Assembly (NCBI GenBank): GCA_009838645.1
Contig: VXRC01000049.1
Span: forward strand, 124,001 to 188,000
Source of the DNA: Gemmatimonadota bacterium
GTDB lineage: Bacteria > JAAXHH01
Reading direction: 5' to 3'
Length of the DNA stretch: 64,000 nt
The notes under the pieces are model-generated. The model ran no database searches. It was not told where the DNA came from and saw only the letters and a list, made by a program, of their open reading frames with translations. The translations under genes and the position numbers were made by a program. Below are positions 11,899-15,484 of the stretch, in pieces (the first letter of the stretch is position 1; each line of letters opens with the position of its first letter).

Positions 11899-12093
11899 TC
11901 AGCTGTCCTTCGTGGCGGACGTGCCGGAGGTACCCTGTTTCTCTTCGGTGGGCTCTTTGTTCTGTGCTTTCTTGAACTCGGTGATCCCCTGGCCCAGACC
12001 CTTGGCCAGTTCGGGAAGCTTCTTCGCACCGAACAGGATCATGACGATGACAAGAATGATAATCAGTTCGGTCGTGCCAAAACTACCTAGCAT
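11899..12093 (-). CDS. tatA: Sec-independent (twin-arginine) translocase subunit TatA
   Basis: Small pore-forming subunit of the Tat system that exports folded proteins. It has 64 residues from the ATG at 12093; the frame is open slightly further, but a near-perfect GGAGGTGA site fits this ATG. Residues about 5-20 form the short membrane helix ([17 protein letters not shown]), followed by the hallmark [21 protein letters not shown] hinge and amphipathic helix, then a charged tail. No tatB or tatC is adjacent. A Tat-dependent substrate is present in this window (aminotransferase at 42857). TatE/TatA cannot be separated by sequence alone. Confidence 0.93.
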
Positions 12094-12114
12094 GTAAATC
12101 ACCTCCTCGCATTG

Positions 12115-12143: not shown

Positions 12144-12187
12144 GCGCGAATGAATAGACCAGGGCCATGCCGGTTCAGGAATGAACC

Positions 12188-12217
12188 TTGCCATGTCGTA
12201 TCTCCCATGTTTATATA
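12188..12217 (+). promoter_or_regulatory. sigma70-type promoter of the SelW-like gene
   Basis: TTGCCA (12188-12193) and TATATA (12212-12217) with an 18-bp spacer, divergent from the tatA promoter. The predicted start near 12224 leaves a leader of about 50 nt before the GTG at 12277. Confidence 0.55.
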
Positions 12218-12276
12218 GATGCTGACGTTTGCAGCCGATCCGGCTGCCGGCCGCACCTACGTTCAAGGGGGACACG

Positions 12277-12516
12277 GTGATCGTACGTATCGTTTACTGC
12301 GCTGACTGAAGCTACGAACAAGACGCCGCCGGGTTGGCGGTGAAACTGCTGGAGTACTACAAACACGATATCGAACAGCTGCTGCTTGTGCCGTCCGGAG
12401 GAGGCAGGTTCGAAGTCACTGTGGATGATTCGCTGATCTTCTCCAAGCTGGCGAACGACCGGTTTCCGGAATACGCGGAGGTCAAGGACGCCATCGAGGC
12501 ATCGATCGCGGGCTGA
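12277..12516 (+). CDS. SelW/Rdx-family selenoprotein with in-frame UGA (CxxU motif)
   Basis: Reading through the TGA at 12307-12309 as selenocysteine gives 79 residues starting VIVRIVYCADU, where C8-A-D-U11 is the CxxU redox motif of the SelW/SelT/SelH (Rdx) thioredoxin-like family. After it come family hallmarks: LLLVPSGGGRFEVTVDD, LIFSKLANDRFPEYAEVKDAI. Length and motif order match SelW proteins, thought to act in thiol redox reactions. The GTG start has a GGGG-rich ribosome site at 12265-12272; an upstream TGA at 12223 limits the frame. A hairpin fitting the bacterial SECIS rules follows the UGA. A conventional gene call would start at 12334 and lose the active site. No selABCD gene is in the window, so selenocysteine use is inferred. 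Confidence 0.85.
12310..12342 (+). promoter_or_regulatory. bSECIS-like hairpin directing UGA recoding
   Basis: A 7-bp GC-rich stem, CGCCGCC (12324-12330) pairing with GGCGGTG (12336-12342, one G-U), encloses the 5-nt loop GGGTT (12331-12335). The first loop base is a G and lies 21 nt after the UGA. Bacterial SECIS elements need a small loop with a G in its first two positions about 16-37 nt after the UGA, and this satisfies both. Confidence 0.72.
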
Positions 12517-12541
12517 CGCGCATTCATTGGCAACGAGGACT

Positions 12542-12595
12542 GAGACCGTTCGCTGGTCCGAGATCGTTCGCAGCACCGAGGCTGTTCGCAGGTCC
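12542..12595. repeat. 18-bp tandem repeat, three copies
   Basis: Copies at 12542-12559, 12560-12577 and 12578-12595 share the pattern GAGnnnGTTCGCnGnnCC, and a truncated fourth (GAGGATTGAGG) becomes the ribosome-site region of the STAS gene. It lies in the 95-bp gap between the SelW-like gene and the STAS gene. Confidence 0.75.
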
Positions 12596-12611: not shown

Positions 12612-12953
12612 ATGAACATCTACGTTTCGCTGGAAGACGAAATTGCAGTGCTTCGCATCGAGGGCAGGTTGTGGGAGGAAGAGGACACCGTCGAGCTGGA
12701 CCGGATGATCGACGACACCCTCGCCCGGGGCTGCACGCGGTTCGTCGCGGATTTGACCGGTGTGCCCATCATGAACAGTTCCGGACTGGGTTCGCTGATC
12801 GCGGCCATGAAGAAAATACGATCCAGGGACGGGGAGATGGTACTCACGGGCGTCAACGACCGCCTGGATCACCTGTTCCGGATCACCCGGCTGTATACGG
12901 TCTTCAAGACGTATGACAATGTAGACGCCGCCGTGGAAAACATGCTCGCCTGA
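12612..12953 (+). CDS. STAS-domain anti-sigma-factor antagonist
   Basis: Single STAS domain of 113 residues, the SpoIIAA/RsbV type, which is switched by serine phosphorylation and binds an RsbW-like kinase/anti-sigma factor. The phosphoacceptor loop is MNSSGLGSL with S56/S57 in the right place, after the central strand FVADLTGVPI. No kinase or phosphatase partner is adjacent, so its target is unknown. The ATG has GAGGATGG just upstream. It is 95 bp after the SelW-like gene and 26 bp before the CehA-like gene, probably co-transcribed. Confidence 0.88.
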   Translation: MNIYVSLEDEIAVLRIEGRLWEEEDTVELDRMIDDTLARGCTRFVADLTGVPIMNSSGLGSLIAAMKKIRSRDGEMVLTGVNDRLDHLFRITRLYTVFKTYDNVDAAVENMLA

Positions 12954-12979: not shown

Positions 12980-15484
12980 ATGCCGGACTACCAGCCCCTG
13001 GACCTCACCCAGATCTGCAACGCGAACCGCGGCGTATACGACTCCATCGCAGACCCTCCGCTGGGATCGCAGACGTTTTACGGCCTGCCCTTCCAAATCG
13101 GCGACGGCACCGGAGAAACCGACTGCTTCATCGGCTTCGGCGCCGAGGTGGGCTGTCCGTCCGGGCCCGTCGAGATTCCGGTCGGCCGTGCCGCGGTCAA
13201 CGTGGTTTTCGCCCACGCGGTGATCCGTTCGGAGATCGAGTCGGGCGGGCCGATCGCCCTTCCCGTGGCCACGTACCGGTTCGCATGGGACGACGGCCGG
13301 TCCGAGTCCGTAACGATCCGTGAACGATTCGAGATCGGCTACATGCCCCTTCCCTGGGGGCAGTATCCCTTTCTCTGCGTCCCGGACGAGAAGCCGTCGA
13401 CCTACAACCGGTCGGGCGGCGACTGGAGCGATGCGGGCCGCCGGCAGACTGAGGCCGAACAGGGATGGCCGCGCGGTTACTATCTCTGGGCCTGGCGCAA
13501 TCCACGTCCCGGTCGTGTAATCCGTTCGATTGAAATCACGCCGCAGGGCCCGCCCTTCGTCGTGGCCGCCGTTACGCTCGGCCATGTCGACGAAGATCCC
13601 ATCTGCCGTTGGGCCGCCCGGGACGTCCGGATCGAGTTCAAGCATCCGGAGGACGCGGAAAAGCCCTTCAACCTGGATGTGGAAGTCGACCGGGGCTACG
13701 CGACGTACGCTTATCCGCTGCCCGATCAGGTCGACCAGGCCTTCCTGACCGACACGCACCGTGGCTGGGGCCAGGCGGACTCCAATCGCGCCAGTCCCGC
13801 CCACGTGGGCGTGGCCGGCACCCCGTCGGCCACCGTAACTGTAAAACAGGATGGGAAGGCGGTCGGATCGGCCAACTGGGGCGAACTGGAAGCCAATGAG
13901 GTTGTCGAGACCCCTTCGGTCCGGTTCGAGGTCATCGACACGGGCCGGAACTGGGTGCACACCACGGTGTTGGACGACGAGACGGGCAAGCCCGTACCGT
14001 GCCGCGTCCATTTCCGGTCGGCCCGCGGCGTGCCCTACGCGCCGCACGGCCATCATGCCCATGTGAACTCGAACCTGGAGACCTGGCACGTGGACGTGGG
14101 CGGCGACGTGCGCCTGGGCCAGATGTCCTACGCCTACATCGACGGCAAATGCCAGGGCTGGCTGCCCCGGGGCGAGGTGCACGTGGACGTGGCCCGCGGA
14201 TTCGAGTACGAACCGATTCGCGAGCGCGTAAACATCGAACCCGGGCAACGCGAACTAACGCTGCGGCTCAAGCGCTGGACCGATCTGAACGCGGAGCGGT
14301 ACTTCAGCGGCGACACCCACGTGCATTTCCTCTCCACCCAGGGCGCGCAGCTCGAGGCCAAAGGGGAAGACCTGAACGTCGTCAACCTCCTGCTCTCGCA
14401 GTGGGGAGGCCTCTTCACGAACACCGAGGAGTTCACGGGATCGGCGAACGTGGCGCCGGACGGCGATACGATCGTGTACGCCACGCAGGAGAACCGCCAG
14501 CACATCCTGGGCCACCTGTCCCTTCTTGGCCTGAAGGAGCCGGTCATGCCCTGGTGCTCGGACGGACCCGGCGAGGCCGAACTGGGGGGCAACCTGGAAA
14601 CGACCCTGTCGTACTGGGCCGACGCCTGCCACGCCCAGGGCGGGACGGTGGTGATCCCCCACATCCCCAATCCCAACTGCGAACCGGCGGTCCTCATCGC
14701 CACGGACCGCGCCGATGCCGTGGAGATGCTGGTGCACAGCGAGTACAACCACCTGGAGTACTACCGTTACCTGAATTGCGGGTACAGGCTGCCGCTGGCC
14801 GGCGGAACGGACAAGATGTCCAGCGATGTGCCGGTGGGGATCTACCGGACCTACGCCTACATCCCGCCGGACGAGCCCTTTTCCTACGACAACTGGTGCA
14901 AGGCGCTGCGCGGCGGGAACACCTTCCTGAGCGCGGGGCCCATCATCCGGTTCAAGGTGAACGGCCAGGATATCGGAGACACGGTGAATCTGCCCGGAAA
15001 CGGCGGGACGGTCGAGATCGAGGCGTCGGCGGATTCGACGTTGCCGATCCATACGCTGGAAATTGTGCAGCAGGGCCGAGTGGTCGCCTCTGCGGAAGAA
15101 CGCAAGGGTACCCGCCGGCTTTCGCTCAAGACCAGTCTGAAAATCGAAGGCCACACCTGGCTGGCGGCGCGGTGCGCCGGACCGAACTACACCAGCATTC
15201 CGCACCACGACGGCTGGCGCCGGGGCATCATGGCCCATACGTCGCCGGTTTATGTGGCCTGCGGCGGCCCCTACTGGCTGTTCGACCTGGAGAACGCCCA
15301 GTACATGCTGAGCCTGATCGAAGGGGGCCTGTCCTACATCAAGCGCCGCAGCTGGCAACACAAGCCGGGAACGACCACCCATCACCACGGCGCGGACGAT
15401 CACGAAGCCTTTCTGGAGGCACCCTACCTGCAGGCCCGGGAAGCCATCCACCGGCGCATGCACGAGCTGAACATCCCCCACTGA
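12980..15484 (+). CDS. CehA/McbA-family PHP metallohydrolase (large form)
   Basis: Large 834-residue hydrolase. The N-terminal ~430 residues are beta-rich with a carboxypeptidase-like stretch (VLDDETGKPVPCRVHFRSARG). The metal site begins at YFSGDTHVHF (about residues 443-450), the first motif of PHP/CehA-McbA hydrolases, followed by ILGHLSLLGL, TVVIPHIPNPN, EMLVHSEYNH and GGTDKMSSDVPVG, which supply further His/Asp/Glu metal ligands. CehA and McbA hydrolyse the aryl carbamate carbaryl, but most homologues act on unknown esters, amides or phosphates. There is no clear signal peptide. GAGG precedes the ATG. It is 51 bp ahead of a BCCT transporter, which hints at a quaternary-ammonium or zwitterionic substrate (inference). 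Confidence 0.82.
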   Translation: MPDYQPLDLTQICNANRGVYDSIADPPLGSQTFYGLPFQIGDGTGETDCFIGFGAEVGCPSGPVEIPVGRAAVNVVFAHAVIRSEIESGGPIALPVATYRFAWDDGRSESVTIRERFEIGYMPLPWGQYPFLCVPDEKPSTYNRSGGDWSDAGRRQTEAEQGWPRGYYLWAWRNPRPGRVIRSIEITPQGPPFVVAAVTLGHVDEDPICRWAARDVRIEFKHPEDAEKPFNLDVEVDRGYATYAYPLPDQVDQAFLTDTHRGWGQADSNRASPAHVGVAGTPSATVTVKQDGKAVGSANWGELEANEVVETPSVRFEVIDTGRNWVHTTVLDDETGKPVPCRVHFRSARGVPYAPHGHHAHVNSNLETWHVDVGGDVRLGQMSYAYIDGKCQGWLPRGEVHVDVARGFEYEPIRERVNIEPGQRELTLRLKRWTDLNAERYFSGDTHVHFLSTQGAQLEAKGEDLNVVNLLLSQWGGLFTNTEEFTGSANVAPDGDTIVYATQENRQHILGHLSLLGLKEPVMPWCSDGPGEAELGGNLETTLSYWADACHAQGGTVVIPHIPNPNCEPAVLIATDRADAVEMLVHSEYNHLEYYRYLNCGYRLPLAGGTDKMSSDVPVGIYRTYAYIPPDEPFSYDNWCKALRGGNTFLSAGPIIRFKVNGQDIGDTVNLPGNGGTVEIEASADSTLPIHTLEIVQQGRVVASAEERKGTRRLSLKTSLKIEGHTWLAARCAGPNYTSIPHHDGWRRGIMAHTSPVYVACGGPYWLFDLENAQYMLSLIEGGLSYIKRRSWQHKPGTTTHHHGADDHEAFLEAPYLQAREAIHRRMHELNIPH

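Follow-up and report, generated by a model that had tools for sequence, protein, structure and literature searches.

The window, by which we mean the whole 64,000-nucleotide stretch of DNA analysed, contains a selW-like gene of the Rdx family that is missed by standard annotation, and in which one UGA codon means selenocysteine (Sec). Its start codon, GTG at 12277, and its terminator, TGA at 12514–12516, were read from the window sequence, and they bear out the first-pass annotation, which had proposed a 79-residue SelW-like protein with a CADU motif across the TGA at 12307; frame, motif and terminator are exactly as it had given them. That annotation had also expected a standard gene caller to report a 60-residue stub from 12334, and a mechanical ORF search of the window under translation table 11 reproduced this, a TTG ORF of 60 residues from 12334 being its sole product at the locus. 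The ribosome site that it had placed before the GTG is present as a Shine-Dalgarno-like sequence, which is conserved in relatives (Table 1).

Table 1. Features at and around the selW-like gene, in window coordinates
Feature	Position	Strand	Remarks
TatA-type translocase subunit	11899..12102	-	upstream, divergent
Upstream block TTGCCA...TTTATATA	12183..12215	+	candidate promoter; conserved in 12 same-genus genomes
Shine-Dalgarno-like AAGGGGG (AAGGAGG in relatives)	12266..12272	+	conserved
selW-like gene (Rdx family)	12277..12516	+	GTG start, 79 residues, U at position 11, TGA terminator
CADU active-site motif (TGC GCT GAC TGA)	12298..12309	+	residues 8-11; aligns with CxxC/CxxU of relatives
Sec-UGA codon (codon 11)	12307..12309	+	invariant in 13 genomes
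Bacterial SECIS hairpin	12324..12342	+	7-bp stem, loop GGGUU, loop begins 21 nt after UGA
STAS-domain protein (anti-sigma-factor antagonist family)	12612..12953	+	conserved downstream neighbour
CehA/McbA-family metallohydrolase	12980..15484	+	conserved next neighbour

The read-through product matched both profiles that had been named for comparison, Pfam Rdx (PF10262; 1.4e-20, 73.7 bits against a cut-off of 22.6, profile positions 2–73 of 74) and TIGR02174 (1e-17, 64.2 bits against a cut-off of 34.2, positions 1–73 of 74), and both matches exceed the curated cut-offs, span the UGA and take in the whole profile. The best NCBIfam E-value, 1.2e-21, came from NF041051, the SelT/SelW/SelH family of Campylobacterota, but the score of 76.7 bits lies under the cut-off of 88 for that subgroup. 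In alignment, residues 8–11 (CADU) correspond to CTSU, CMRU, CTLC and CRQC of relatives, and they occupy the CxxC/CxxU site of the family, where its first strand ends. Solved Rdx proteins were also matched by sequence, for example PDB 2fa8, whose CTQC aligns with CADU, and a thioredoxin-like fold is predicted from this match. The protein is an ordinary member of the known SelW family with standard decoding, and this family is common in marine bacteria.

We compared 14 genomes of the same family, in which the relatives' named records are Candidatus Latescibacterota MAGs, some of them labelled Gemmatimonadetes and one Zixiibacteriota. The gene was present in 13 (12 of the same genus and one of another genus, whose copy has 68% identity), each copy with exactly one internal stop, a TGA at codon 11, and a wider search of the phylum gave no further copies beyond these 13 genomes. 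In a codon-by-codon comparison C8, A9, D10 and the TGA were invariant and synonymous sites varied on both sides; pN/pS among five representatives was 0.11 for codons 2–10 and 0.29 for codons 12–75, and purifying selection acts on both sides of the UGA. Moreover, plasmid records hold two genes with UGA at the homologous codon, one for the Thermomicrobium roseum Rdx protein WP_012642931.1 (47% identity, CTSU) and one in Cytobacillus spongiae (41% identity, CMRU) directly beside selD, and Aeromonas and Azospirillum relatives with Cys at this site. These two UGA genes are misannotated or unannotated at NC_011961.1 408173-408400 (T. roseum; L199) and NZ_CP089998.1 370662-370868 (C. spongiae; L200).

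An error of sequencing or assembly in a Cys codon (TGC or TGT) would fit the Cys homologues in Aeromonas and Azospirillum, and TGA is one base from TGC, but the probability of such an error is practically nil, given that 13 genomes from two genera, each assembled independently, have TGA at this codon, as do Thermomicrobium and Cytobacillus. A Cys codon in close relatives, which the first-pass annotation had named as one of two observations that would overturn its reading, was found in none of them, TGA being kept in 13 of 13 genomes. We also regard it as very improbable that the locus is a pseudogene or that translation yields nothing but the 60-residue stub from 12334. A standard caller does open the TTG ORF there, and RefSeq treats the T. 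roseum relative likewise, as a 60-residue ‘Rdx family protein’ starting behind the TGA, which is the type of error that had been predicted; however, codons 2–10 before the UGA are conserved at the protein level with synonymous changes, the Shine-Dalgarno sequence before the GTG is conserved, and neither the family's first strand nor its active site is part of the stub. Hence the invariance of C8, A9, D10 and the TGA across 13 genomes, together with synonymous variation and the low pN/pS that mark purifying selection on both sides, excludes sequencing error, decay into a pseudogene and a downstream-only start. What decides for the Sec-containing protein is that the family profiles match on both sides of the UGA and that this UGA is conserved in 13 genomes.

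The hairpin behind the UGA has a stability of −13.2 kcal/mol. By the rule set out in a 2026 review on selenoproteins of prokaryotes (PMC13188914), a bacterial SECIS has a loop of 3–9 nt with a G among its first two positions, a stem of 4–16 bp, a distance of 16–37 nt from the UGA and an energy of at most −7.5, and the hairpin at 12324–12342 agrees with every term, with a loop of 5 starting GG, a stem of 7 and a spacing of 21. The stem sequence GCCGCC/GGCGGT is identical across the 13 genomes, the relative from the other genus carries the loop GGUCU on this same stem, and synonymous changes are fewer in codons 17–22 than in the other degenerate codons (permutation p about 0.018, in a small sample). 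In this GC-rich window a hairpin conforming to the rule stands by chance behind 7.9% of TGAs, and an equally stable one behind 0.7%. Six of the seven stem pairs never vary and no compensatory base changes occur among relatives, and because the stem hardly varies, covariation gives no independent support. Thus, with 7.9% of the TGAs of the window conforming and covariation absent, the hairpin alone is weak evidence, supporting and not decisive. Rfam at gathering thresholds gave no matches in the window.

The genome to which the window belongs (3.8 Mb, 97% complete) had been predicted to carry selA, selB, selC and selD, and a genome search found all four; the second refuting observation named in advance, a lack of Sec machinery, is thereby ruled out. 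The tRNA-Sec gene (anticodon TCA, 71.8 bits) lies at C14:67077-67170, selB ends about 40 nt before it, selA (492 bits) is on the same contig, and a selD of Cys type (258 bits) is at C17. In a single 834-residue frame (L023:43-2547), an NDH2-like flavoprotein domain, assigned by eye, precedes this selD as its fusion partner. Across the phylum, selA was found in 15 of 16 genomes and tRNA-Sec in 13 of 16. One relative, G013, carries the UGA gene together with selB, but the genome search found neither selA nor tRNA-Sec in it; because its selB stops, at the 3′-end, 18 bases short of a contig end, where tRNA-Sec follows in our genome, the simplest reading is that the missing tRNA-Sec is likely an assembly gap. 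Separately, a divergent SelA paralogue (TIGR00474, 158 bits with a cut-off of 268) was noted at L171:13328-17680 (G000 C48, about 33–38 kb), adjoining a TIGR04282-type glycosyltransferase and an AIR-synthase-like protein related to ThiL, HypE and SelD.

The presence of this machinery also bears on whether an altered genetic code or a suppressor might cause the UGA to be read as Cys or Trp instead of Sec. The site does align with Cys in Cys-type homologues, but such decoding is exceedingly improbable in a genome with a canonical tRNA-Sec(UCA), selA, selB and selD, where UGA also terminates the selW-like gene itself as well as others, and where a SECIS-type hairpin is conserved right after the internal UGA.

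A scan for read-through TGA codons, made by coding potential and without family knowledge, covered 2.23 Mb of the genome (58%); with the hairpin threshold relaxed to −6 kcal/mol it returned 14 candidates with a SECIS-like hairpin, and the selW-like gene was recovered with the most stable hairpin and the second coding score of the 14. Judging by their profile matches and an in-frame TGA inside each domain, three further selenoproteins are likely encoded in the same genome: an AhpD-like peroxidase-related protein with CEYU (TIGR01926, 5.9e-40; G000 C11:2047-2832, L131), a peroxiredoxin/SelL-like protein with UPLC (AhpC-TSA, 2.8e-23; C24:32107-32841, L160) and a UGSC protein (PF24696, 2.8e-39; C49:201326-201922, L092). 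Prominent marine selenoproteins include SELENOW-like, AhpD-like, UGSC and Prx proteins (PMC9312934). C17:205684 and C12:47761, also returned by the scan, are in our judgement ordinary gene ends, with the next gene following.

With bacterial SelW-like selenoproteins (PF10262, TIGR02174) the present protein shares the CxxU, the size, the Rdx domain, a small SECIS directly behind the UGA and a host with selABCD, and it differs only in the host lineage (Candidatus Latescibacterota-type MAGs) and in the neighbourhood of a STAS protein and a CehA/McbA-like hydrolase. The T. roseum and C. spongiae genes share the UGA codon, whereas their motifs are CTSU and CMRU instead of CADU and their neighbours are thiI and selD, respectively. 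The SECIS of eukaryotes lies in the 3′ UTR. Eukaryotic SELENOW is likewise a Sec-containing Rdx protein with CXXU, of about 9 kDa (PMC8508763), whereas here the SECIS is inside the coding region. SelW-like proteins are the most abundant selenoprotein family of the Sargasso Sea set (Sargasso Sea and GOS sets: PMC1088965, PMC2398784). Family, motif, SECIS type and marine selenoprotein set have all been described before, and none of them is a surprise to a specialist.

The 12 genomes of the same genus strongly conserve the TTGCCA...TTTATATAG block upstream of the gene, so the promoter that had been claimed here is plausible at this block, although a sigma-70 scan gave no match on the forward strand at the threshold of the scanner. 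The claim of a downstream hairpin fared worse: there is no support for a hairpin or terminator 3′ of the gene, where the folding z-score is positive, and 12533–12590, between the selW-like and STAS genes, is an insertion absent from close relatives. This insertion is about 55 bases long and holds three imperfect repeats of 18 bases (about GTTCGCNGGTCCGAG), and one relative (L033) has different repeats between the two genes. A phage origin was rejected, as a search of phage records gave no match. SelW, the STAS protein and the CehA/McbA hydrolase follow one another in this order in two genera; in G015 a CehA/McbA-like hydrolase lies behind another gene, with neither STAS nor SelW within 1.5 kb upstream. 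From the kept gene order one might speculate that SelW is a redox sensor for the downstream STAS anti-sigma-antagonist, a selenol switch acting on a partner-switching regulator, but we consider this unlikely.

The gene, its family, the conserved UGA, the SECIS-like hairpin and the full Sec machinery are directly seen, and the gene almost certainly encodes a Sec-containing SelW-like Rdx protein, a small oxidoreductase with Sec at the UGA via SelB and the hairpin at 12324–12342. During translation, SelB carrying Sec-tRNA-Sec(UCA) would bind this hairpin, Sec would be inserted at the UGA at 12307, and the ribosome would then yield the 79-residue protein, whose Cys-Ala-Asp-Sec active site may, as suggested by the CxxU motif, act as a small thiol/selenol oxidoreductase. 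Correcting the selW-like gene, which automatic annotation overlooks, is a solid and useful annotation fix. Moreover, together with the three other likely selenoproteins, the machinery supports the view that Sec use is a stable trait of this Latescibacterota-type lineage, which has been little studied.
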